Below, one piece after another: positions 49,818 through 64,000 of a stretch of DNA of 64,000 nt (positions are counted from its first letter, which is position 1; each line of letters starts with the position of its first letter). Under the pieces are notes generated by a model. That model was not told the origin of the DNA. It saw only the letters and a list, made by a program, of their open reading frames with translations, and ran no database searches. The position numbers and the translations under genes are program-made. Origin of the DNA: Thermogemmata fonticola (GTDB lineage Bacteria > Planctomycetota > Planctomycetia > Gemmatales > Gemmataceae); assembly GCF_013694095.1 (NCBI RefSeq), contig NZ_JACEFB010000002.1, forward strand, positions 558,001 to 622,000, written 5' to 3'.

Positions 49818-52583
49818 TTGGCGGACGCGGTCAATCCTCCGACAGTTTCGGATGGGCCAGCGGCAGCGGGTGGCGAACCGCCGATCCCGGAGCTGGACAT
49901 CATCGATGAGTTGCAGACCAGCTACCTGACGTATGCCCAGTCCGTGATTGTCAGCCGGGCGTTGCCGGATGTACGGGACGGTTTGAAGCCGGTCCAGCGC
50001 CGGATTCTGGTCGCCATGCGCGACCTGGGTTTAGGTCCGACAGCGGCGACGAGCAAATGCGCCGGCATCATCGGCGAGACAATGAAGCGGTATCACCCGC
50101 ACGGGGATGCCTCGATCTATGACACCCTGGTCCGCATGACCCAGGAATGGGTGATGCGCTACCCGCTGATTGAGGGACAGGGAAACTTCGGCTCGATCGC
50201 CGGTTTGCCGCCTGCCGCCCACCGCTACACCGAGGCCCGCCTCAGCCCCGTGGCCGCCGAGATGCTCGATGATCTGGATCGTGACACGGTGGACTTCATC
50301 GACAACTACGACGGCAAATATCAGGAGCCGCTCGTCCTGCCGGGCCGGTTTCCCAACCTGCTGGTGAACGGCGCCGATGGCATCGCCGTCGGAATGGCGA
50401 CCCATATCCCGCCCCACAATCTGCGAGAAGTGTGCGCCGCCCTCATCCGCCTGCTCGATGACCCGGATGTCTCACTCCAGGAACTGCTGGAGATCATCCC
50501 CGGCCCGGATTTCCCCACCGGCGGCATCATCATGGGCCGGCAGGGCATCCTCGATGGTTACGCTCGCGGCTACGGGCGGCTGACTCTCCGCGCACGAGCC
50601 GAGATCATCGAGGAAGGCAAAGGCAAAACCCCCGCGATCGTCATCCGGGAGGTCCCCTTCCAGGTGACCCGCAATGCATTGGCCGAAGAGATCGGCGAGC
50701 TGGTCAAAGATGAGCGCATCACCGGCATCCGCGGCATCCGGGATGAATCCAGCAAGCGAGGCGGCGAACCCGTCCGCTTGATCATCGAACTCAGCCCCAA
50801 GGCGGACCCCCATTTGGTCCTCAATCAACTTTACCAGTACAGCAAGCTCCAAAAGACCGTCAGTGTCATCATGCTGGCCCTGGTGGATGGCCAGCCGCGC
50901 ATCCTCGGCCTCAAGGAGATGATGCAGCGCTTCCTGGAGCATCGCATCCTGGTGATCCGCCGCCGGACGGAGTTTCTGCTGCGGGAAGCCAAGCGCCGCG
51001 GCCACGTGCTGGAAGGACAGTTGATCGCCATCGCCGACATCGAAGCGGTCATTCGCATCTGCCGCACCTCCCCCGATCGGCAGGAAGCCAAGCGTCGGCT
51101 CATGGAGCTGGCCGTTCCCGCCGCGCTCATGGAGCGAGCCATCGGTGCCGAAGCCTTCGCCGCCTTGCAGCGAGAATTGGGAGTCCTGTCACAGTACCAG
51201 ATGACCGAGCAGCAGGCCGAAGCGGTGGTCCGCTTGCAACTCGGACAACTGGCGGCCCTGGAAAGTGACGAAATCCTCCAGGAATACCTGCAACTGCGGC
51301 AGCAGATCCGGGAGTACGAAACCCTTCTGGCAGACCCGGCCAACATCCGCGCCGTGATTCGCGAGGAATTGCAGCGTCTGGCCGATAAGTACGGCGATGA
51401 CCGCCGCACGGAAATCGCGGACGCTGAAGCGGAATTGGACCTGGAAGACCTTATCGAAGATGAACAGAACGTCGTGAGCATCACTCACGAGGGCTTCATC
51501 AAGCGTATGCCGTTGCACGAATACCGGGTCCAGGGCCGCGGCGGCAAGGGCGTCCAGGGCGGCTTACGGGAAAACGATTTCGTCGAGCATTTCTTCGTTG
51601 CTTCCACCAAAGCCTACCTGCTCTGCTTCACCACGACGGGGCGGTGTTACTGGCTCAAGGTGTACCGCATTCCCCAGGCCTCTCGCACTTCTCCGGGACG
51701 GGCCATGGCCAACGTGCTCGCCCTGCCGCCGGAAGAAAAGATCACCAGCATTGTCCCCGTGCGAGAGTTCGCCGAAGGGTTTTGTCTGATGATGGCCACG
51801 CGGCGGGGGACGGTCAAAAAAACCGACCTCATGGAATACAGTCGGCCGCGCAGCGGCGGCATCATCGGCATCACGCTCGATGCGGGGGATGAGCTGATCG
51901 ATGTCTGCCTGACGCGAGCGGGGGATGAAGTCGTGCTTTCGACCCGCCAGGGCATGGCCATCCGCTTCAGCGAGGCGGATGTGCGCCCGATGGGCCGGGC
52001 CGCACGCGGAGTCCGCGGCATCCGCCTGAGCCGAGACGATTGCGTCGTCGGCATGGTCGTCGCCGATCCCGAAGGCCAGTTGCTCACCGTCACCGAGAAA
52101 GGTTACGGCAAGCGCACCCCCTTCGGACCAAATAGCCCGGATGGCCTCAGCGCCGCGTCGGCCCCGGAGGAAGAGGACTCGGAAGCCCCCGCCCTCCATG
52201 GCGCCGCCGAAGAGCCGGAAGACGCCGAAGCGGCGGAAACGGCCAGCCAGGCCGAGGACAGCGCGGACACCGCCGCAGACAGCGATTCCACCAACATGCG
52301 TTACCGCTTGCAACGCCGGGGAGGTAAAGGGATCAAAGATGTCCGGGTGACCGCCAAAAACGGCCCGGTCGTCGGTATTGCCAGTGTCCGCGATGGCGAT
52401 GAAATCATGCTCATCAGCAAGGAGGGCATGGTGGTTCGCTGTCGGGTCAATGACATCCGCATCGTGGGCCGCAATACCCAGGGCGTCCGCCTGATCCATC
52501 TGAAAGAAGGCGACCAGGTCGTCTCCTTGGCTAAAGTCGCACGGGAAGAGATCGCCGAAGTGCCGGCGGATATTCCCCGCTGA
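49818..52583 (+). CDS. gyrA: DNA gyrase/topoisomerase IV subunit A
   Basis: 921 residues. The breakage-reunion part has [48 protein letters not shown], and the catalytic Tyr137 in [11 protein letters not shown]. The C-terminal beta-pinwheel has QGRGGKG in blade 1 and QRRGGKG near the last blade, the GyrA-box pattern, which favours gyrase over ParC. An acidic insertion of about 45 residues ([20 protein letters not shown]...) interrupts the pinwheel. Position 98, equivalent to Ser83 in E. coli GyrA, is Ala; Asp102 (Asp87) is kept. The TTG at 49818 is preferred over TTG at 49812 because AAGGAG lies 7 bases upstream of it. gyrB is not in the window. Confidence 0.88.
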
Positions 52584-52682
52584 CGGGGGCGGCGGCATGC
52601 GGCCGGACGCTCGAACTCCTTTGGGAGTGAGGGACCAACCATAAGTAACTCCGCCAGGCTGCTCGATTCGGGAGCGGAAGTG

Positions 52683-53696
52683 ATGCGTGTCCTACTGACC
52701 GGAGGCTATGGCTTCATCGGGGCTTGGATCATTCGCAACTTGCTGGAGCAGGGCCACGCGGTTTACGTCTTCGATCTCAAAGAGGACCCGCGCCGCCTCC
52801 TCCAGATTCTGCCCGCCTCCGAGGCATCCCGCGCGGTCTTTGTGCCCGGCAACGTGACGGACTGGCCCGCCCTCCGCCGCGCCATCGAGGAGCATGGCAT
52901 CACGCACATCATCCACTTAGCCGGTTTGCAAGTGCCGGCCTGCCGGGCGGACCCTCTTTTGGGCGCCCAAGTGAATGTCCTCGGCACCCTGGCGGTCTTG
53001 GAAGCGGCTCGATTGTCCCGCGGCCAGGTCCAGCGCGTCGTCTATGCCAGCAGTGCCGCCGTCTATGGTCCGCCGGATGGTTATCCTCCTGGCCCGCTCT
53101 CGGAAGAGGTGATCCTGCGGCCCAGCACCCACTACGGCGTCTTCAAAGCCTGTAACGAAGGCAATGCCCGCATCTACTTCCTCGATCACGGACTCGTCAG
53201 CATCGGCCTGCGTCCCTGGACCGTCTATGGCGTGGGCCGAGACCTGGGCATGACTAGCGAACCGACCAAGGCCATCAAAGCCGCTTTGCTCGGCCGGCCC
53301 TGGCACATCACCTTCGGCGGCTGGACCGACTTCCAGTACGTCGATGATGTGGCGAAAACTTTTATCCTCTGCCTGGAGCGTCCCTACCACGGGGCGAAAA
53401 GTTACAACTTGCGCGGCACCGTCACCACGCTGGCTGAGTTCCACCGGACGCTCTGCCAAGTGCTCCCCGAAGCTGAGCGGCTGGTCACCTTCGGTTCCAC
53501 CCAGATTCCTATTGCTTATGATCTGAGCGATGATGCCCTCCAGCGCGATTTGGGGCCGATGCCCAAAACTCCCCTTCGCCGCGGCATCGAAGAGACCGTC
53601 GCCATCTTCCGCCAATTGCACCAGCAAGGACGCCTGGACACCTCGGACCTGGAGGCGGTCCGCTCCGGCTCTGATGCTGTCGCCGCTGAGCCGTGA
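52683..53696 (+). CDS. NAD-dependent epimerase/dehydratase (extended SDR)
   Basis: 337 residues, extended short-chain dehydrogenase. GGYGFIGAW at residue 8 binds NAD, HLAGLQVPACRADP, the active site YASSAAVYGPP with Ser and HYGVFKACNE (YxxxK), and GLRPWTVYGVGRD and FQYVDDVAKTFILCLE are typical. It likely acts on a nucleotide sugar; substrate not readable. ATG at 52683 is preceded by GGGAGCGGAAGTG. It lies downstream of gyrA by 99 bases. Confidence 0.9.
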   Translation: MRVLLTGGYGFIGAWIIRNLLEQGHAVYVFDLKEDPRRLLQILPASEASRAVFVPGNVTDWPALRRAIEEHGITHIIHLAGLQVPACRADPLLGAQVNVLGTLAVLEAARLSRGQVQRVVYASSAAVYGPPDGYPPGPLSEEVILRPSTHYGVFKACNEGNARIYFLDHGLVSIGLRPWTVYGVGRDLGMTSEPTKAIKAALLGRPWHITFGGWTDFQYVDDVAKTFILCLERPYHGAKSYNLRGTVTTLAEFHRTLCQVLPEAERLVTFGSTQIPIAYDLSDDALQRDLGPMPKTPLRRGIEETVAIFRQLHQQGRLDTSDLEAVRSGSDAVAAEP

Positions 53697-53997
53697 TCCT
53701 CCCGTCCCTCCCCCTTGCGCAGATCATCTCCGCTCGCTCGTCCCCGCGCATTCTCGGCTTGGGCGGCCATGCCCCGTTTGCCATCCGCTTTGTAATTCCC
53801 GGCGGACCGTTTTGTACGGAATCCCTCAAGTGGCAAAAGTTGCAAGCTCGCCGGGAACCTTTCCCCGCTGGCTCCCCACGGAATCTCCCCGAAAAAAGCG
53901 TTTTTCGCCGGATCGTTTCTCCTCCGCGGGTTTTGGCATGCCGCCTGCACAACTCTTTTCCGCCAGTGACGGCATTCCCCATCCAGGAGGCTTGCTG
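53697..53997. other. Intergenic region, no recognised content
   Basis: 301 bases between the epimerase and the small gene at 53998. It has no repeat, RNA motif or clear promoter. A strong ribosome site (CCAGGAGG) ends it and belongs to the small gene. Confidence 0.45.
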
Positions 53998-54276
53998 ATG
54001 ATCTCGACACGTACCCCCGCGCCCATTCCTCTGACCCTCTGTGGAACAGAGACGGGAAAGACCCTTGACGGCTCTGGCAAAACATCCACCCGCCCCGCCA
54101 CAACCCTGGAGCGCCAACGCTCGGCGGCGGAAATCCGGCAAATGCTCCGGGACATTGCCTGGGTTCTGCACTGGACACAGCGGGTCAAGCGCGAGCTGGC
54201 CGCCGAGTGCATGCCCTGCACTTCCGAGGCGATCCCTGCCGACAAAGACGGGATGCCCGCCGACTTGCCGGCTTGA
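53998..54276 (+). CDS. Small hypothetical protein, 92 residues
   Basis: The frame MISTRTPAPIPLTL ... ends at TGA 54276. It is soluble with a central helix (ERQRSAAEIRQMLRDIAWVLHWTQRVKREL), two Cys (MPCTS) and no membrane segment. The support is an excellent ribosome site CCAGGAGG 7 bases before the ATG and codon positions like the neighbouring genes. No family recognised; it might be a small binding or regulatory protein. The frame is open upstream, so a longer form is not excluded. Confidence 0.55.
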   Translation: MISTRTPAPIPLTLCGTETGKTLDGSGKTSTRPATTLERQRSAAEIRQMLRDIAWVLHWTQRVKRELAAECMPCTSEAIPADKDGMPADLPA

Positions 54277-54476
54277 CCTTGCCCCTTGGGAAGGGACCCC
54301 CTGATGGAATTGCCCCAGGAAGTTTCCCGGCGGATGTGTCCCTTCGGCGAACGGCCCTCGGTCCCCGCGGCTTCGCTGTCAGAAAGGTGACATTCCTGGA
54401 ATCGCCCAGCCGGTCATGCTCGTCGAACGACAGCCGACGGAGGGGAAGGAAAACCGCGAAATGTGGAAAACAGAGT

Positions 54477-55307
54477 CTACTTCAACTCGCGGATCTCGAT
54501 CTTGCGGAACTCTGTGGGATGGCTCTCCGCCTGGATGGCGATGTATCCTTCACTCAGGAGCACCTCGCCGTTGCGTTCGCGGAGCAGGCGGGCCGCATCG
54601 GGGTCCTTCGGGTCCAATTGGGGCTTTTCGTACTCCAGCACCAGCTCGCCTTCGACATAATGCCGCACTTTCTCGCTGCCGAGCACTTCAATTTCCGCCG
54701 TGACCCAAACATCGCCGTGGTAAGTCTTAGAGCGGGAGTTGGTGCAGTGCGGCGTGAAGAGCTTGCCGTTGAGGACGATGTGGGTGCCCGGCGTGCAGAC
54801 GTTGTTCGTCGGGCGATTCCCCTGGCCCAAACCGCCGAGAAGTTGTGCCTCGATGGAGACGGGAAAGTCCTGATCCTTCCGCATGCTTTTGGGGTCCTGG
54901 CAGTGGAACATGATGCCATTGTTGCGCACCGCCCAACTTGGCCCGCCCGGACATTGCTGCCCGACAAAGCGATACTCCACCCGCAAGCGATAGCGCGAAA
55001 ACTTTTCCTTCACGTAGAACAGATGCCCGAAGGTGTTGTCAAATGAGCGGTACTTGTCGTAGCAGACTTTGAGCACGCCATCTTCGACCCGGAAGGTGTC
55101 CCGATAGTTTTCCCCCAAAGGATGGCCCTTGAATTTCGGCACCCAGCCATCGAGGTCCTTGCCATTGAACAACGCCCGCCACGGCGTGGCTGGTTGTGTG
55201 CTTTCCTGGGCAGGAAGCGATAACAACCCGATCGATAAGAGGCTTCCTAAACTTGCTATGCCCAAAAGGGACATCCACGCATTGCTCCACTGGGCTGATC
55301 GCACCAT
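54477..55307 (-). CDS. DUF1080 (3-keto-disaccharide hydrolase-like) exported protein
   Basis: 276 residues. A signal sequence (WMSLLGIASLGSLLSIGLLSLPAQ) is followed by the DUF1080 concanavalin-like domain: PWRALFNGKDLDGWVPKFKGHPLGENYRDTFRVEDGVLKV, FSRYRLRVEYRFVGQQ, NNGIMFHCQDP, and the C-terminal YIAIQAESHPTEFRKIEIREL. DUF1080 proteins are very abundant in planctomycetes and one subgroup cleaves 3-keto-glycosides. The ATG follows GGAGGAGCACAATC. It is divergent from the AhpD-like gene. Confidence 0.9.
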   Translation of the reverse strand: MVRSAQWSNAWMSLLGIASLGSLLSIGLLSLPAQESTQPATPWRALFNGKDLDGWVPKFKGHPLGENYRDTFRVEDGVLKVCYDKYRSFDNTFGHLFYVKEKFSRYRLRVEYRFVGQQCPGGPSWAVRNNGIMFHCQDPKSMRKDQDFPVSIEAQLLGGLGQGNRPTNNVCTPGTHIVLNGKLFTPHCTNSRSKTYHGDVWVTAEIEVLGSEKVRHYVEGELVLEYEKPQLDPKDPDAARLLRERNGEVLLSEGYIAIQAESHPTEFRKIEIRELK

Positions 55308-55509
55308 GATTGTGCTCCTCCGAAACTGGATCTGCACGATTTTGTTGCCGAGCTTGCCAGGGACCACCCCTTGTTCCGGGGGAACCAGATGCTTCCCCGT
55401 TCCGAATTGCCATTGTTTTAGAACTTCCCAGGGAAACTGATCCAGGTAGAAAAAAGGTAAACTTGGGGAAGAGCCGGGAGCGGATGCGACTAGCGTAACG
55501 GAGGCGGGG

Positions 55510-55947
55510 ATGGCACAAGTCCAGGGGCGGGTGGCGACGGTGCGGCCGGTGGACGAGGCCGAGGCCAGCGGCAAAGTTGCGGAGATTTTCGCCGACATCA
55601 AGCGGACCAAAGGGCTGGAACGGGTACCCAACTTCTGGCGTGTGCTGGCGACCCATCCCGATCAGTTGGAGATGGTCTGGAGCCGGTTGAAAGCGCTGAT
55701 GCATCCGGAAGCGGTGGGGCGGGACTCGCCGCTGGATGCCCGGACGCGCGAGATCATCGCTCTGGCGGTCAGTGCGGCCAATGGCTGTAGCTATTGCATC
55801 AATTCCCACACGGCAGCCCTGCGCAAACTCGGCGTCGATGACCGCACCCTCGGAGAAATCCTGGCGATCGTCTCGCTCTTCTGCACCACCAACGTGCTGG
55901 CGGATGCCTATCAGGTCCAGCCGGATGTCCTGCCGCCGGTGGAATAG
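55510..55947 (+). CDS. AhpD-like / carboxymuconolactone decarboxylase family protein
   Basis: 145 residues, all helical. The motif ANGCSYCINSHTAALRKLGV is the CxxC-x3-H site of AhpD-like peroxidase-associated proteins, and ARTREIIALAVSAANG precedes it as usual. It is likely an alkylhydroperoxidase-type disulfide protein in the cytosol. The ATG follows GGAGGCGGGG. No ahpC gene is nearby. Confidence 0.88.
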   Translation: MAQVQGRVATVRPVDEAEASGKVAEIFADIKRTKGLERVPNFWRVLATHPDQLEMVWSRLKALMHPEAVGRDSPLDARTREIIALAVSAANGCSYCINSHTAALRKLGVDDRTLGEILAIVSLFCTTNVLADAYQVQPDVLPPVE

Positions 55948-56060
55948 CGGGGTGCGCGGGCTGGCCGGCGTTCGCTTGGCTGGCGTGTCTTCCAATCCTA
56001 CGGTTTATCCGGTCCTAACGGTCCTGGCTCCGTCCGGTGACAGTCTTCTGTCCGTTCTCC

Positions 56061-59000
56061 TCACGGGTGGCGAGGCGGGCGGGTGTTCCAGCGCCGGTGG
56101 TATTCGCTCTGCTGGGCCGGCGGCGGGAAGCGGAGAGGATCATAGGGATAATGGGGCATGGCACGATAGGGAAGCGGTTCGATCTGACCGCCGGTGAGCG
56201 TGGTGGGGGCGGTGTCCTTGGAGTAACCCCGAGCACGGAGAATGAAGGAACGCTGCCACTGCGGGGGCAAGGGGGGAAGGGAAGCGGCGTCGAAGGCCAG
56301 GGTGACAACATCCCCTGGTCCGGCCAAGACGAAGAGGTCATCCACGGCTTGCAGCAGCTCGGTGACTTCGCCTGTGCGGGTCAGCCGCCCTTGCCAGCGG
56401 GAGATGGGAATGGTTTCCAACTGATCGGGATCGTAGCGTTGCGGGGAACCATCGCCGGCGCTCCATTCGCGGAAGAAACCGCGATGTTCGAGCACTGCTT
56501 TCTGCACGGGCAAGGTGTAAATCCGCGGTATTTTGTCCCTCTCCGGGGGGTCCATTTCCGGTGCCAAGAGAATATGGTCCCAGGAGATTTGCAGGTTGGT
56601 CCGAATGCGGAGGGGACCGGCGGCTGGATCGAACGACGGGGGGAGAGGCACCGTCATGACGCGTGGCAAACCGGCGGGGATGCCGAGGTTGCAGACGCGC
56701 CGCCAGGAGCCGCCAGCCTCGCGCTGTTCCAGCACCGGCCAGAGGATGGGAACGCCGGCTTGCGTGGCGGCCCAAATGGACTCTGGGTAGGCATAGTCGG
56801 TCCAGCCGGCCAGGAGGAGGTGCCAGCGCCGGGATTGGGGGTGGGGCTGTGGCGGGGCGAAGGTGCAATCGATCCCATGTTCCTCCGCGAATCCCAGCCA
56901 AGCCCGGCGGGCGAAGCCGTCCACATACCGGCCATCCCGCTGTTGGAGCAGGGCGGTGACATCCCGCTGGCGGTGATCGACGGCGCGCTGCACGCTCAGA
57001 CACTCGGACTGCCGGAAAAAGAGCGGGCGCTGACTGGGAAGCGGCGGCGCGAGGGCGAAGCGCTCATCAGGATAAACGAGCCAATCCGGCGGATGATCGA
57101 TCACGACGAGTTGGACCGAGTCCAAGTAAGCGACCTCATCGAGCGGCTCGGCGATCTGGAGCAGGTAGCGCCCCTGATGGGGGCGGAGCATGGGGGGTTC
57201 GAGTTTGAGAGATTCTTCGGGCCGCGGAGGCCGGACTGTGCCATCGGGATTAAGTTCCGCCAGGGCGCCGGCTCCGAGGATGTCCGTCACGAATTCGAAG
57301 CGTTCCCCATTCCAGGCGAACAGGACTGGGCAGGAGGTCGATTTGCGATTGATCTCCGTGAGAGTGTGGGCGCCGGCGGCGAGTTGCAATTCCGATTGGG
57401 GCACAAAGTCGGGCCAGCGGATTTGCACGGCTTCGGCGGCAGGGACGGGACCGAGGCCGACGATCAGCGGGCCGTAGGATTGCCCCAAGGCCGCTGCCTG
57501 CGGCGTGTGTTCCATCAGGATGCGCCGCCCCCCGGCATAAACGCGGAGCCGGGCGCCGATTCCTTGGGCGTTGCTCCGTTGCTTTTTCCCTTTGTCCCAT
57601 TTGCCGCTGAGAGTCAGGACCAAGGCATGATGGGCGTCCCCCCGGTGGCGGAAGAGTGTCAGCCCGCTGTCCGGCGACCAGAGCACCAGGTCGGGCCGCT
57701 GCCGGTTGTCCACATCCGCGAGGCTCATTGCTTGGGGGCGGAGCGCCTCTGCCTTGGGGCCGAAGGGAGACAGCAGGCGGGTCCATTTCCCGTTCCCTTC
57801 ATTGCGGAGCCAGAGAGGGAGGCGCTCCTGGCTCAGGCCGACGAGGTCCGGCAGACCGTCGAGGTCCAAATCAACGACCTGAGCTTGCCGCAGCGGCGGG
57901 GCATTGAGAGAGTGGGGCTGGAAGCGTCCGAGCAAAGCCCTGGCCGGCGTGTCGCGCGTGCTCAGCCAAAGGCGAGCCGGCTGGCCATGAGCGAGCAGAC
58001 AAAAATCGGTTTGCTCATCGTCGTTAGCATCCAGCACGGCGGCGAGCGAGCCTTTCACTTCGGCGAACGCCTGGGACGTCTGGAAGCGGAGCAAGCGGTC
58101 ATTGAGCAACACCACGGATTCCTGCTGGTCGCGCCAGACGGCGATGTCGATGTCCTGATCGCCATCGAGATCAGTGAGCAGCAGTCCGGTGATAGCGCCG
58201 CGGACTTGGAGGGGTTCCTGTTCGGCGAGCCGGAAGGCCGGCGTGAGGGGCGGAAAGGGTTGGCCGCGCTCAGCGGGCCGGGCTTCCCCCACATTCAGGA
58301 AGACGGCGAGGCGGCCCGCCTCGGACGAGTCCGTCGGTTGCCCCTGGAGCTGTTGGAGGGCGGCTGCCGGGGTCGCGGCATACTGGCAGGCCAGCAAATC
58401 CAGGTCGCCATCTTGATCGAGGTCCAGCCAGTAAGCCGTCAGGAAAACACCTGACAGCTTGTCCAGTCCAGCGGCGCGGGTGACATCTTCAAATCCTTTG
58501 CCCTCTTGATTGCGGAGCAGCCGAAGGCCTTGAGCGGTAGCGAGCAGGAGGTCCGGCCAGCCATCATTGTCGAAGTCGGCACAAGCGCCGCCGAGACTGG
58601 CGGGTTGGCCTGCCAGGGGTGCTAGGGAGCTGACATCCCGGAATACGCCGTTGCCTTCGTTGTGCAGAAGCAGATCACCGACGGCGCCGTTCCGCTGCAC
58701 AGCGGCGAGGAGGAACAGATCGGGGCGGCCATCGCGGTCGTAGTCGCACCAGATCATGGCGGCGCCGAAGCGCTCACGCAGAGTTTGCAGGAGCGGGTCC
58801 AGCATTTCGGCAGCAGCCCAGCGGACGGAGGGGTCGAGCTGCACCGTAGCGGCTTGCTCCTGGAACACCGGCAAGGCGGGGGGGCGGCGGGGCAGGGGAG
58901 GAGGCAGACCGATCGCGGTGGCATACTTCCCCATCTCGGTGTAAGACACGGCGGCGATGTCCTCAACCTCGGCCTGCCGCAGGGATTCAAACTCGCGGAG

Positions 59001-59672
59001 CAGCCGTTCCTGAGCGGCCCGGTCCGCGGCGATGCTGGCATGCTGGGTCAGACTATGCCGGGCAGCGTTGAGATACGGGTTGATTTGCAGGGCCTTTTCA
59101 AAACACTGGCGGGCCTCGGCAGACTCGAACTCATCGGCGGTGCACCGTCCGCGGAAATACCAGGCATGGGCATCCTGGGGATCGATCTCCGTAACAGCCC
59201 GGAAGTGGGCATAGGCTTGCTCGCGTTCCCCCCGGTCGAAATGCCAGATACCCAAGCAGAAGTGAGCGTAAGGATTGGGGGGATCACGCGCCAGGACATC
59301 ATGGAAAACCTCCGCGGCCCGACGCAGCTTCTCCGCCTTGGATTGGGGGTCGGCATCGCGGCTATTGAGCAGGGCGATCCCCAGGTTGATCCGGGCAGCC
59401 AGCCAATCGGGCGCCCGCTGGACTGCTTCCTCAAAGGCCTCGATGGCCTGGTCCGCGGCAGGCCGGCCTTGATACTGCTCGTCGAACCACTCCAAAAGCG
59501 CCAGGCCACGAGCATTGGCCTGTGCCGCGGCGAGGAGGTCGGCCTCCGATGTTACCGGATTCCCTGACCGATAACGCCAGAGCAGATAGCCGCTGGCGGC
59601 GAGCACCACCAGCAGGATACCGCCGATCCAAAACCCCGTGGACGGTTTGCCGGAGGGAGAGAAAAACTTCAT
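56061..59672 (-). CDS. TPR-CRTAC1 (ASPIC/UnbV) large exported protein
   Basis: 1,203 residues. A single transmembrane/signal segment (FWIGGILLVVLAASGYLLW) is followed by tetratricopeptide repeats (residues 60-200: IEAFEEAVQRAPDWLAARINLGIALL, AYAHFRAVTEIDPQDAHAWYFRG). From about 310 to 690 come FG-GAP/VCBS blades with Ca-binding loops DYDRDGRPDLFLL, DFDNDGWPDLLLA, DLDQDGDLDLLA and DLDGDQDIDIAV. An ASPIC/UnbV domain (GIGARLRVYAGGRRILMEHTPQAAALGQSYGPLIVGLG) follows near residue 730. The final 400 residues (CPVLFAWNGERFEFVTDILGAGAL) are a separate unknown domain. It is the third gene of the cytochrome/CRTAC1 unit. Confidence 0.88.
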   Translation of the reverse strand: MKFFSPSGKPSTGFWIGGILLVVLAASGYLLWRYRSGNPVTSEADLLAAAQANARGLALLEWFDEQYQGRPAADQAIEAFEEAVQRAPDWLAARINLGIALLNSRDADPQSKAEKLRRAAEVFHDVLARDPPNPYAHFCLGIWHFDRGEREQAYAHFRAVTEIDPQDAHAWYFRGRCTADEFESAEARQCFEKALQINPYLNAARHSLTQHASIAADRAAQERLLREFESLRQAEVEDIAAVSYTEMGKYATAIGLPPPLPRRPPALPVFQEQAATVQLDPSVRWAAAEMLDPLLQTLRERFGAAMIWCDYDRDGRPDLFLLAAVQRNGAVGDLLLHNEGNGVFRDVSSLAPLAGQPASLGGACADFDNDGWPDLLLATAQGLRLLRNQEGKGFEDVTRAAGLDKLSGVFLTAYWLDLDQDGDLDLLACQYAATPAAALQQLQGQPTDSSEAGRLAVFLNVGEARPAERGQPFPPLTPAFRLAEQEPLQVRGAITGLLLTDLDGDQDIDIAVWRDQQESVVLLNDRLLRFQTSQAFAEVKGSLAAVLDANDDEQTDFCLLAHGQPARLWLSTRDTPARALLGRFQPHSLNAPPLRQAQVVDLDLDGLPDLVGLSQERLPLWLRNEGNGKWTRLLSPFGPKAEALRPQAMSLADVDNRQRPDLVLWSPDSGLTLFRHRGDAHHALVLTLSGKWDKGKKQRSNAQGIGARLRVYAGGRRILMEHTPQAAALGQSYGPLIVGLGPVPAAEAVQIRWPDFVPQSELQLAAGAHTLTEINRKSTSCPVLFAWNGERFEFVTDILGAGALAELNPDGTVRPPRPEESLKLEPPMLRPHQGRYLLQIAEPLDEVAYLDSVQLVVIDHPPDWLVYPDERFALAPPLPSQRPLFFRQSECLSVQRAVDHRQRDVTALLQQRDGRYVDGFARRAWLGFAEEHGIDCTFAPPQPHPQSRRWHLLLAGWTDYAYPESIWAATQAGVPILWPVLEQREAGGSWRRVCNLGIPAGLPRVMTVPLPPSFDPAAGPLRIRTNLQISWDHILLAPEMDPPERDKIPRIYTLPVQKAVLEHRGFFREWSAGDGSPQRYDPDQLETIPISRWQGRLTRTGEVTELLQAVDDLFVLAGPGDVVTLAFDAASLPPLPPQWQRSFILRARGYSKDTAPTTLTGGQIEPLPYRAMPHYPYDPLRFPPPAQQSEYHRRWNTRPPRHP

Positions 59673-59744
59673 AACTTGGCCCTGCCTGGATTGCTGGCGC
59701 TGAGGCAACGAAACGGACCTGGAGGAATCAAGCCGCCCGCCTAG

Positions 59745-61679
59745 TTATGGTAGTCCCAGCTCGCAGAGGATTTCCGCTTGGCTTTGCCCCTGGCGGAGGC
59801 GGTAGGCCGTGTTGACTTTCAGGTGCTGCCAGACTTGAGGCGGCGCACCGGGTGAGGCCGGCCAGCGGACCGTCACTTTTTCGACCTGATCGGCGGCCAA
59901 CTGGCCCAGGCCGATCGTCACGGGCAGTTCGCACTGGCTGAGGTAACTCCGGCCTCCCTCTACTTCCCGCTGATACACCTGGCCGCCCGCTTCGACTGTA
60001 ATGACAGCTCCGATGGCACTGCGGTTGCTCGTGACTCCGTCCCCTTCGAGGGTCAGGCGGAGCCAGCGGTGCCCCAGTTTCTGTTCATTGCGGAGCAGGC
60101 GGACCGGGCCGTTATTGGCGACCAGCAGGACATCGAGATCGCCATCGCCGTCGTAATCGAGGTAGGCACAGCCGCGGCCTACCAGGGGCTGAAACAGCTC
60201 GCTTCCCGCTGCGGCTGCCGTGACCGGTTCCCAAAGGCGTTGCGAGTCTCCCGTGTTCCAGAAGAGCAGCACCGGCTGAGCGTAGGACTGCTGGGCTTGC
60301 ACCTTGCTGATTTCCGGTTCCAGATGGCCGTTGCACACGAGGAGGTCCAAGCGGCCGTCCAGATCGTAATCCCAGAAGAAGATGCCGAATTTGAGCCAAA
60401 AGCGGCTGGGACCAGCGAGGCCGACGGCGAGGGCGGAATCGATAAAGCGCGGCCGCTGGCGGTCCGCCACGGTGAGGAAGGTGATCGGCTCGTTGGCGAA
60501 GTTGGCAATGACTGCGCCGCGGCGTCCGGGAAGGTATTCGCCCCAGTCGATGCCCATCGCCCCGCGAGCACGGGCTTCGGCGTAGGCGGCGCCGGCCTCT
60601 TGTCCCTTTTCCACGTAGCGGCGGCCTCCCTGGCCATCGGCGACGTTGTGGAAGAAGAAGTTCCGCACGGTGTCGTTGGCCACCAGCAGATCCGGCCAGC
60701 CGTCCTCGTCCGGGTCGCACACGACTACGCCCAGGGCCTTGGCCACCGAACGCCGTCGGGCTGTCGCATCGGTACCCTCGCGCTCGTACACCGTCACACC
60801 GGCTGCCTCGCTGACATCTTCAAACCTCTTCCCGCCGTGATTGCGGTACAGGGCACACTGGGAACCTTCAAACTGCTGAGGCTGCAAATAGGCGCGTCCG
60901 ATTCCCGTTAGCGTCGAATCGATGGCCAAATCAATGGCAGGGGACCAGGTGACATAGCGGCAGAGGAATAGGTCCAGCCAGCCGTCCCGATCGTAATCCA
61001 CGAAGGTGGCGCTGGTGGCAAACTCGATGGGTTCGGCGTGTTTGTCAAAGCTGCCCGCCGTGGCGCTCGAAGGCCAACCGCCGGACGGCGGCAGACCCAT
61101 CCGGGTGGCGACCTCTTCAAAGCGCCGCTGCCCTCCATTTCCCGCCACATTGTGAAACAGATGACATCCACCGACGCCAGTGACAAACAGATCTATGTAG
61201 CCGTCATTGTCAAAGTCACCAGCACAAGCTCCCAGGCCATAGAATTGAAAGGTCTGCAACCCTGCGGCCTGCGTGACGTCCGTGAACCGGCCATTTCCGG
61301 TGTTGCGGTACAGTTTGAGGCAGGGTTGCGGGGAGCCGTTCGGCCAGTCCTGCCCCGGCCAGGGGCAGCCGTTGATCAGCAAGATATCCTGCCAGCCGTC
61401 GTTGTCGTAATCCAGCACGCACACGCCCGGCCCCATTGTTTCGGGCAAAAGTTTCAAGCCATAGGCGCCATTGAAGTGCTGGAATTGGATGTTGGCTTCC
61501 GCGGTGGCATCCCGGAAGGGCACGGCGGGCACGGGAATGGCCGGCCGCTCCCGCACCGCTTCGATGACGGGGGGAGCCTGGTCGGCACTGCGGCGCGGCC
61601 ACCAGCGCCAGGCAGCTACTCCTCCTGCTGCCAGCACGATGACAGCAATGAACAAGACAATTTTGTGTTGATAAGTCAT
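59745..61679 (-). CDS. CRTAC1 (ASPIC/UnbV) exported beta-propeller protein
   Basis: 644 residues. An N-terminal anchor/signal (IVLFIAVIVLAAGGVAAW) precedes FG-GAP/VCBS repeats with calcium loops: VCVLDYDNDGWQDILLI, AGDFDNDGYIDLFVT, FVDYDRDGWLDLFLCRYV, CDPDEDGWPDLLVA and LDYDGDGDLDVLLV. The C-terminal ASPIC/UnbV part is NRSAIGAVITVEAGGQVYQREVEGGRSYLSQ...ITIGLG-like (VTIGLGQLAADQVEKVTVRWP). It is probably a secreted or periplasmic Ca-binding propeller. The ATG has a near-ideal AAGGAGATATCT before it. It lies 93 bases downstream of the cytochrome and 72 bases upstream of the TPR-CRTAC1 gene. Confidence 0.92.
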   Translation of the reverse strand: MTYQHKIVLFIAVIVLAAGGVAAWRWWPRRSADQAPPVIEAVRERPAIPVPAVPFRDATAEANIQFQHFNGAYGLKLLPETMGPGVCVLDYDNDGWQDILLINGCPWPGQDWPNGSPQPCLKLYRNTGNGRFTDVTQAAGLQTFQFYGLGACAGDFDNDGYIDLFVTGVGGCHLFHNVAGNGGQRRFEEVATRMGLPPSGGWPSSATAGSFDKHAEPIEFATSATFVDYDRDGWLDLFLCRYVTWSPAIDLAIDSTLTGIGRAYLQPQQFEGSQCALYRNHGGKRFEDVSEAAGVTVYEREGTDATARRRSVAKALGVVVCDPDEDGWPDLLVANDTVRNFFFHNVADGQGGRRYVEKGQEAGAAYAEARARGAMGIDWGEYLPGRRGAVIANFANEPITFLTVADRQRPRFIDSALAVGLAGPSRFWLKFGIFFWDYDLDGRLDLLVCNGHLEPEISKVQAQQSYAQPVLLFWNTGDSQRLWEPVTAAAAGSELFQPLVGRGCAYLDYDGDGDLDVLLVANNGPVRLLRNEQKLGHRWLRLTLEGDGVTSNRSAIGAVITVEAGGQVYQREVEGGRSYLSQCELPVTIGLGQLAADQVEKVTVRWPASPGAPPQVWQHLKVNTAYRLRQGQSQAEILCELGLP

Positions 61680-61772
61680 AGATATCTCCTTGGATCATGC
61701 ACATTCATTTTCAAGCAAAATTAATCCTCAATATATGCGGGCAAATCTGCTGCGTTTCAGAGCGCTGCCGGC

Positions 61773-64000
61773 TCAGGGCAATTGATGAGCTGTGGGATAG
61801 ATGACGATGGCCTCGGCCGCGGCGTTGGCTGCCGGATTCTTCTCCCGGTACTTCCGCGTGGTAGCGGCACGCGCCAGCTCATCCGGTTTGTACATGCCGT
61901 GGGCAATGCGGTGCAGCTCGCTGAGCACTGCCGCCAGGGAGGTCTGCACGCCTGGGTCTTTTTCTGCATGGTAGGCCGTCCGCAGCCGTTCCAGCGCCAA
62001 GCGGAGCGTGGGGAGCCGAGGAGCACGCGGGTCGGGAGGCCGCTGGCCCCAAGCGATCACGGCTCCCTGAAGCTGGGCCAGCCGTTGGCGACGATCGGAA
62101 CCATTCGGGCTACCCGACAGAGCCTGGTTCAGCAAAGCCTCGATGTCTGAAGATTGCGCCTCCGCCACGTGGGCCGGAGAGGGGGCGCCGGCGCCCAAAC
62201 GATCGTAACACTGATAGAGGCCATAGTGAGCATCGAGGTCTTCGGAATCGACAACCAGAGCGCGTTCAAAGGCCTGGACGGCTCGCAACAGGTACTGCCG
62301 CTCGGCTTCGGACCCCGACGCTTCGAGCGTGCTCCGCTTGAAGAGCGTTCGCCCCAGTTCATCGAGAACGACGACATCGCGGGTGAAATCGAACTTGATG
62401 CGGCCATCCTCGTGTCGCGGCCGATGGGCGGGATCCACGATCCGTTCCAACAGTGCCGCCGCGGCGTCGAGGTCCTCCCGGCTGGTCGCTTGTTGCGCGG
62501 TGATGACGCCTTGCAGCCAGGCCAGGAGCCACCAGGGCGGCGGAGGCTGACACTGCCGCGCCGCATTGAGCGACCGCGCCGCTTCCTCCAACCGGCCCTG
62601 CTCGATATACACCCGCGCCAGATTGACATACCCGTGCCAGTGAGCCTCGGCCTGGTCCCATTCGGTCAGCTTCCGGAAGGCTGCTTCTGCCTGGCGGAGG
62701 TTCCCCCGTTTGGGATTCAACGGCATCCCTTCCAGCAGGCAGCCAATGCCGTAGTCGTTCCAGCGCTGCCAGGCCGGCTGAATGGGCGATTCCTGGGCCG
62801 GCACTTCCTCCGCCACACCCGCCACAGGAAGCACCACGCGATCGGAGCACAGATCGACGATCGGCAGCTTGGGAATAGGCCGGCCCAAGTCCTTGTGGAC
62901 ATACTCCATGTACTTGTAGTCAAATTTGCGGTAGCGCAGCCTGACGCGCAGCTCCACCGGCGCTGTCACATCCGGCGGCACTTGGAGGCGGTAGTGGACC
63001 ACTTGGCCGGCGCCGGGCGGAATCTGCTTGTCATAGAGGGGTGTGAAGATGTCTTGCGGATTGCGCCGGTCGATGCGGTTCCCATGGCGGTCGAGCATGT
63101 GCACGTTGCAGTAATGGGCCCACGGGTCCACCTCTCCCCTCTCATCCGGGCCAGACAAAGCACCATTGCGGCCAATGATTCGACTGCCGCTGCGCGCCTC
63201 AAAATCCACCCAGACTTCGTTGGAATCCGCTGTCCCCTGCGTGAAGGGATGGCCGATATTGAGCGTGCGGATCACCACCTCGACAACGTAGTGCTTACCC
63301 GGTTGCAGTTTCGGCAGAGTCGGGCGGATGACTGCTAAGGAATCGTCGTCCATTTGACCATTCCCTGTCATGTGCTTGATGCCGAAGATGTCGATACGGA
63401 GTTTGTCGTCGCGCAGAAAAGCCGCGTGCTTGTCGATGGCCTCTTGCCACCGGTCGGAGTAGGGAGCGTAGCGCGGCTCATGCTTGAGCAATTCAAACAG
63501 GCCGGTGTTGGCCGCAGGGAAGAAATGGCTGTGCCGCTTGCGAACGCCGCTGCCGTCGAAATCCTTGGCGGCGAAGTCCGCGCTTGGTTCCAAAGGCATA
63601 TGGCAGGCGGCGCAGTTCTCCTTGCGGCCGGTGGGGGGGTAGTAGAAACTGCGCGCTCCGTGGCCAACGCTACTCAATAGAAACGTGTCGTAATGATTCT
63701 GCCCACGGAGAAAATCTTTATAGTGGTTCAACTCCACAGGTAAATGGACTTTGTGACACAAAGAGCAGAACTCGGCTGTCTTATGGAATGGCTTGAGGAA
63801 TGTCTTTTTATGCAACTCTGGCTTTGCTTTGATTAATTGATTGTTGATCCATTGTAGTGCACTATTCTCGCTAAATGCAAACGGATAATGCTTCGCCTCT
63901 TCAATGGTATAAGCTGCATTACCAATTGTGGCATTGATATGTGTGATGGAATGACAGACGACGCATGTAATCCCGGCATGGGCGGTGGGATCGTTGAAGA
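61773..64000 (-). CDS. Multihaem cytochrome c with C-terminal TPR region, 5' end outside window
   Basis: About 742 residues visible; the start lies past 64000. Haem-binding CxxCH motifs are CVVCH, CSLCH and CAACH, with many surrounding His (HAG, KVH, GHG, HSHFF, KHMTGNG) as possible axial ligands. A beta-rich middle part (LQPGKHYVVEVVIRTLNIGHPFTQGTADSNEVWVDFE) is followed by a C-terminal tetratricopeptide region (HWHGYVNLARVYIEQGRLEEAARSLNAARQC, AFERALVVDSEDLDAHYGLYQCYDRL). It is probably periplasmic. GC content falls sharply at about 63,665 within the gene. It is the first visible gene of the cytochrome/CRTAC1 unit. Confidence 0.9.
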   Translation of the reverse strand, partial: FNDPTAHAGITCVVCHSITHINATIGNAAYTIEEAKHYPFAFSENSALQWINNQLIKAKPELHKKTFLKPFHKTAEFCSLCHKVHLPVELNHYKDFLRGQNHYDTFLLSSVGHGARSFYYPPTGRKENCAACHMPLEPSADFAAKDFDGSGVRKRHSHFFPAANTGLFELLKHEPRYAPYSDRWQEAIDKHAAFLRDDKLRIDIFGIKHMTGNGQMDDDSLAVIRPTLPKLQPGKHYVVEVVIRTLNIGHPFTQGTADSNEVWVDFEARSGSRIIGRNGALSGPDERGEVDPWAHYCNVHMLDRHGNRIDRRNPQDIFTPLYDKQIPPGAGQVVHYRLQVPPDVTAPVELRVRLRYRKFDYKYMEYVHKDLGRPIPKLPIVDLCSDRVVLPVAGVAEEVPAQESPIQPAWQRWNDYGIGCLLEGMPLNPKRGNLRQAEAAFRKLTEWDQAEAHWHGYVNLARVYIEQGRLEEAARSLNAARQCQPPPPWWLLAWLQGVITAQQATSREDLDAAAALLERIVDPAHRPRHEDGRIKFDFTRDVVVLDELGRTLFKRSTLEASGSEAERQYLLRAVQAFERALVVDSEDLDAHYGLYQCYDRLGAGAPSPAHVAEAQSSDIEALLNQALSGSPNGSDRRQRLAQLQGAVIAWGQRPPDPRAPRLPTLRLALERLRTAYHAEKDPGVQTSLAAVLSELHRIAHGMYKPDELARAATTRKYREKNPAANAAAEAIVIYPTAHQLP

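Follow-up and report, generated by a model that had tools for sequence, protein, structure and literature searches.

The pairing of a multihaem cytochrome gene with a gene for a CRTAC1-family protein is kept in many Planctomycetota and Verrucomicrobiota, indicating that the pair is probably an electron-transfer machine of the cell envelope that has not been described before. We analysed a window of 64,000 nt from Thermogemmata fonticola, which carries such a pair together with a third gene encoding a TPR-CRTAC1 protein. Our preferred reading, to which we assign a probability of about 0.6, is that this locus encodes a quinone-linked b/c cytochrome of the cytoplasmic membrane with dedicated periplasmic partner subunits. 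The conserved pair provides a direct, testable hypothesis on the role of bacterial CRTAC1 proteins. Our search of the full-text literature, which covered few subscription journals and is thus a weak negative, returned no description of the pair.

Layout of the locus

Three consecutive genes on the minus strand encode the cytochrome, CRTAC1 and TPR-CRTAC1, in this order, and the ORFs lie where a sequence-only reading of the window had put them. The cytochrome gene, assigned from its ORF, Pfam matches, AlphaFold model and invariant His and Cys residues, fills 61773..64000 and runs 946 bases past the window edge (61773-64946 in window coordinates, 1,057 aa). It is followed by the gene for the 644-aa CRTAC1 protein (59745..61679), supported by its ORF, Pfam and PDB matches, gene order and clade, and by the TPR-CRTAC1 gene (56061..59672), which encodes 1,203 aa from its ATG or 1,215 aa from a TTG at 59708. 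The gaps of 93 and 72 bases reported earlier are both right, the second one when counted to the ATG of the 1,203-aa product. Fitting ribosome sites had been claimed for both downstream starts; this holds for CRTAC1, where AAGGAGATATCT (61680..61691, minus strand), ahead of the ATG, contains a strong site, but not for the ATG of TPR-CRTAC1, whose site is weak. The cytochrome start is preceded by a strong site as well (CCGGAGGTTAGCC-ATG).

The closest convincing genes on either side are encoded on the plus strand (on one side an AhpD-like gene at 55510-55947, on the other a uracil-DNA-glycosylase-like gene past the window edge), suggesting that the transcription unit probably comprises only the cytochrome, CRTAC1 and TPR-CRTAC1 genes. 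A promoter and terminator scan gave no signal above shuffles and was uninformative, and an Rfam search of 50000-64000 plus locus L007 returned no match. All three proteins start with hydrophobic segments, which makes anchoring in the cytoplasmic membrane, with the bulk of the chain on the periplasmic side, probable for each. At 54477-55947 we also observed overlapping ORFs for a 3-keto-disaccharide hydrolase-domain protein (minus strand) and an AhpD/carboxymuconolactone-decarboxylase-like protein (plus strand); the true start of the hydrolase-domain gene is probably later than that of the longest ORF.

Conservation of the gene pair and its partners

A scan of genome contigs revealed at least 520 loci with cytochrome relatives. 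The sources searched assign them no function, and little is understood of the envelope and respiration of the groups that carry them. The 80 relatives that were kept include the isolates Zavarzinella formosa, Singulisphaera acidiphila and Rhodopirellula europaea, and the reach into Acidobacteriota and Verrucomicrobiota is based on genome-contig matches. The cytochrome is present in 48 of 102 genomes of the home order, and 115 of 392 genomes in a sample of the phylum gave a match.

Two outcomes had been named beforehand as speaking against a joint system, a gene order that is not conserved in other genomes and a cytochrome that always occurs without CRTAC1. Neither occurred: of the 106 loci from Planctomycetota and Verrucomicrobiota that could be assessed, 99 have CRTAC1 as the next gene downstream on the same strand, after a median gap of 84 bases. 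This is a count of related genomes taken mostly from best-scoring matches, so that the loci are not independent. These 106 loci remained after removal of duplicates and have enough sequence downstream; they include MAG contigs, for which mis-binning is possible. Clustering of recurring ORF families served as a built-in control and showed that, besides the cytochrome, CRTAC1 and ORFs inside both, no family occurs in more than 15 of 100 loci. Seven loci have no CRTAC1 directly downstream. An HMM search of six of them found no hidden copy there, and the seventh, L066, carries CRTAC1 upstream and a close copy on another contig. L066 and L054 own a CRTAC1 of the same clade elsewhere, and the other five have none downstream.

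The pairing extends to a diverged cytochrome subfamily of about 700 aa and 24-30% identity, which has no TPRs and keeps the b-type His residues and five c-haem sites of the main family, as well as the counterparts of His261, His379, His474 and His566. CRTAC1 is the next gene downstream in all 15 loci retrieved for this subfamily, and at L202 a TPR-CRTAC1 gene lies just upstream. As these loci were chosen by the cytochrome match alone, they represent a fresh test of the pairing, and as a TPR-less subfamily is still paired, the TPRs of the cytochrome are dispensable for it. In most members of this subfamily (L198-L212) the first haem site reads CX4CH instead of CxxCH, so simple motif counts miss one haem.

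The CRTAC1 protein of the window matches FG-GAP_3 (1.2e-28) and UnbV_ASPIC (6.7e-14), and its best PDB match is the solved CRTAC1 structure 9etn (4.3e-15). An N-terminal hydrophobic membrane anchor, an FG-GAP propeller with six Dx[DN]xDG loops and an ASPIC/UnbV C-terminus bear out the anchored propeller with calcium loops recognised in the sequence-only reading. It thus has the domains of CRTAC1/ASPIC-UnbV FG-GAP proteins such as human CRTAC1 (9etn), with six calcium-loop motifs, but unlike the human protein it comes from a bacterium, carries a membrane anchor and is linked genetically to a haem protein.

A tree of 87 CRTAC1 proteins places each of the 50 sampled cytochrome-adjacent copies in a single group of 64 rows (SH-aLRT 97), separate from 23 paralogues; cytochrome adjacency, mapped as a label, requires 6 changes on the tree versus 28 in shuffles. 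The other 14 rows of the group are mainly a Gemmataceae duplicate. This duplicate branch is found directly upstream of the cytochrome in four genomes (L041, L042, L043 and L066) and alone in five cytochrome-less genomes (L060, L061, L062, L064 and L071). Within the home order, seven or more genomes that yielded no cytochrome carry a CRTAC1 of the clade, indicating that CRTAC1 can work without it. The trees of cytochrome and CRTAC1 are congruent (Mantel r 0.81, against 0.21 at most in 1000 permutations), and both contain an identical 13-row clade with all Verrucomicrobiota. This agreement shows joint inheritance rather than contact, and plain vertical descent would also predict it. The home genome has six ASPIC matches in total, and another of its CRTAC1 genes (L075:5297-8988, on G000:C1) directly follows a CBB3-type cytochrome c gene with two CxxCH motifs.

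The 1,203-residue TPR-CRTAC1 protein carries a membrane anchor, TPRs, an FG-GAP propeller with four Dx[DN]xDG loops and an ASPIC domain; as in the CRTAC1 protein, FG-GAP and UnbV_ASPIC score above the Pfam cut-off. The extra C-terminal domain noted earlier is also present and spans about 425 residues (56064..57341, minus strand). Alignment, AlphaFold (pLDDT 88.4), Foldseek and VIA describe it as beta-rich with a galactose-binding/CBM32/F5-8C-like jelly roll. Foldseek found no match for the whole domain, only for the jelly-roll part, and the jelly-roll matches reach Z 9.3, where chance matches reach 7-8. The predicted fold suggests that the jelly roll may bind sugars or envelope polymers.

Within the home order, close orthologues of TPR-CRTAC1 (about 500 bits or more) are found in 40 of the 48 cytochrome-bearing genomes, whereas the 54 genomes without it have none (Fisher 1e-20 by genome and 6e-9 by genus, kinship uncorrected). 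In the mixed genera g3, g6, g7, g25 and g37 its presence tracks that of the cytochrome. The gene is located on another contig in several genomes, yet present, and three genomes have it in divergent orientation to the cytochrome gene instead of behind it. Beyond the family, about a dozen loci encode a relative of the C-terminal domain near the pair. Based on the conserved order and the confined TPR-CRTAC1 orthologue, a functional redox unit is well supported.

Two further observations concern TPR-containing proteins. Distant TPR-CRTAC1 proteins of about 30% identity are encoded in cytochrome-less Gemmataceae (L059, L060, L061, L063 and L065). At L065 (G006:C14:1117001-1135000), the most clearly read of these loci, the neighbours are CRTAC1, a tryptophan-halogenase-like FAD oxidoreductase, a radical SAM protein, an asparagine-synthase-like protein and an RnfD/NqrB-like membrane protein, and this gene group is possibly a separate biosynthetic or redox cluster. 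In G044, a 678-aa protein with seven CxxCH motifs and TPRs is encoded near the module (L050:399-2435, plus strand).

Domains and haem sites of the cytochrome

A multihaem c-type cytochrome fused to TPRs had been read from the window, and Pfam confirms both parts (Cytochrome_C554 above cut-off and TPRs). The description was incomplete, as only three of the five CxxCH motifs and nothing of the N-terminal membrane domain are encoded in the window. The AlphaFold model, built from 84 relatives, has a mean pLDDT of 91.4 and, like the other predicted folds, was made without haem. It shows five predicted TM helices (residues 34-66, 75-106, 112-135, 149-174 and 181-202), which make up the membrane region (34-202), followed by a penta-haem c module with a beta-sandwich (about 205-706) and a TPR solenoid (about 721-1043; 61818..62786, minus strand), the latter seen both as Pfam TPRs and as helical repeats in the model. 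With basic loops taken as inside, the c module is predicted to face the periplasm.

Four His residues of the membrane region (84, 102, 158 and 172), all five CxxCH motifs and four further His residues (261, 379, 474 and 566) are invariant in an alignment of 84 sequences, drawn from Planctomycetota and Verrucomicrobiota plus a single MAG labelled Thermoanaerobaculia. The first two c-haem motifs lie beyond the window edge; the other three, on the minus strand, are CVVCH (residues 328-332, 63951..63965), CSLCH (394-398, 63753..63767), which is followed by the invariant Lys399, and CAACH (445-449, 63600..63614). Judged by motif rather than by chemistry, the protein would thus bind five covalent c haems. 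His84 and His102 are located in helix 75-106 and His158 and His172 in helix 149-174, and they appear to be placed as for two b haems. These two helices, the second and the fourth, run in the same direction, so that in the model His84 and His158 could hold one b haem at the periplasmic side and His102 and His172 another at the cytoplasmic side. A bc1-type cytochrome b was excluded, as there is no PF00033 match in the whole genome.

In a VIA comparison of the model, the penta-haem c552 of Thermochromatium tepidum (5ze8) ranked first (Z 20.0, rmsd 3.8, 339 of 385 residues, 20% identity, model residues 236-706), and the other rows were TPR proteins with Z 14.4 or less. 5ze8 is also the only PDB sequence match of the cytochrome. 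A profile restricted to the c module recovers it with E 1.5e-7 and, weakly, a multihaem selenoprotein cytochrome. TPR matches filled the output of Foldseek run with the whole model, and the c module was seen only with VIA.

The cytochrome therefore matches c552 and the ExtKL/Gsu2801 family in its number of c haems and in the fold of its c module and beta domain, but unlike them it is fused to a di-haem b membrane domain, at the level of prediction, and to TPRs, and is paired with CRTAC1. The NCBIfam model for ExtKL, NF040886, does not match the window cytochrome at E 0.01 and matches 14 of 26 relatives weakly (best 8.7e-8). CbcL of Geobacter sulfurreducens, an inner-membrane b/c quinone oxidoreductase, likewise combines a di-haem b membrane part and a periplasmic multihaem c part in a single chain (PMC9129911), a likeness that on our side is one of sequence and model. 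In contrast to CbcL, with its six helices and nine c haems, the window cytochrome has five predicted helices and five c-haem sites, and the c fold and the partners differ. A b bundle joined to a penta-haem module and TPRs would represent a new layout for membrane quinone-linked cytochromes.

Proposed function and competing explanations

Taking these features together, we infer haem b occupancy, quinone use, physical contact between the subunits and a direction of electron flow as follows. The membrane bundle of the cytochrome would hold two b haems, and electrons would be exchanged among the quinone pool, these b haems and the c552/ExtKL-like periplasmic module with its five c haems. The anchored CRTAC1 propeller may dock on the cytochrome as a constant subunit, where it would most likely shape or position the electron-exit or substrate site. 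Scaffolding or binding to the envelope could be the task of the cytochrome's TPRs and, in Gemmataceae, also of the TPR-CRTAC1 protein, whose C-terminal domain is lectin-like. The sequence-only reading had suggested one electron-transfer or extracellular complex; the linkage supports a redox unit, within which a physical complex would be the conjectural part. The membrane domain, predicted topology and N-terminal anchors point to the inner membrane and periplasm, so that an extracellular location appears less likely.

A bolder form of this model is an unrecognised respiratory complex of Planctomycetota and Verrucomicrobiota, a seven-haem b/c quinone oxidoreductase with the CRTAC1 calcium propeller as an obligatory subunit. 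We regard it as tentative, with odds somewhat short of even; if true, bacterial CRTAC1 proteins, a widespread family, would for the first time have a defined role, namely that of partners to electron-transfer proteins.

A serious rival, although an unlikely one, is a membrane-bound enzyme that reduces or oxidises a small molecule (nitrite, hydroxylamine, NO or a sulfur compound), in which one c haem with an open or non-His distal site would be catalytic and CRTAC1 would contribute to the catalytic cleft or channel, like the propellers of hydrazine synthase. What makes it serious is that only four invariant non-motif His residues of the periplasmic part face five c haems, as counted at the sequence level in the 84 sequences, and that His418, next to the invariant Lys399 and Gln416, is replaced by Gln in the diverged subfamily; another ligand may, however, stand in for the missing conserved His. 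The nearest precedent for the gene pair also bears on this reading: in hydrazine-synthase-like clusters of planctomycetes and others, a CRTAC1 gene lies between the genes for subunits, one of which has c554 domains in clade I (PMC12758564). Both systems thus have a CRTAC1 gene beside multihaem c proteins, and the pair described here may bear on why CRTAC1 genes also adjoin hydrazine-synthase-like enzymes. Unlike those proteins, the window cytochrome is a different protein with a predicted b-type membrane domain. None of the three locus proteins has a Pfam match to the alpha or beta-gamma subunits of hydrazine synthase and no further neighbour recurs, and in profile searches the cytochrome did not match any known nitrogen- or sulfur-cycle enzyme family.

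Less probable still is that an extracellular electron-transfer chain or a cytochrome filament begins with this cytochrome at the inner membrane and passes electrons through the envelope. Its overall layout resembles that of CbcL (PMC9129911), and its c module that of the penta-haem family comprising c552 and the Geobacter proteins ExtKL and Gsu2801; this family has been connected with extracellular transfer and grouped with archaeal cytochrome nanowires (PMC11976967). However, neighbour clustering found no porin or outer-membrane cytochrome gene recurring beside the cytochrome, and a filament subunit is unlikely given its membrane and TPR domains. The gene is, moreover, found in many planctomycetes known as aerobic heterotrophs.

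That cytochrome and CRTAC1 are neighbours merely by shared regulation or history, with separate jobs in the envelope, would fit the numerous CRTAC1 genes of the home genome and the same-clade members without a cytochrome, but is very improbable, since the linkage persists in the diverged subfamily, one CRTAC1 clade is used in the main family and no other neighbour is retained.

Returning to the quinone-linked b/c cytochrome with periplasmic partners, the home genome also harbors two NrfD/COX1 clusters of the kind known from alternative complex III plus oxidase. The cytochrome module is therefore not the sole route of quinol oxidation, and the cytochrome-CRTAC1 module is an addition to aerobic respiration rather than its basis.
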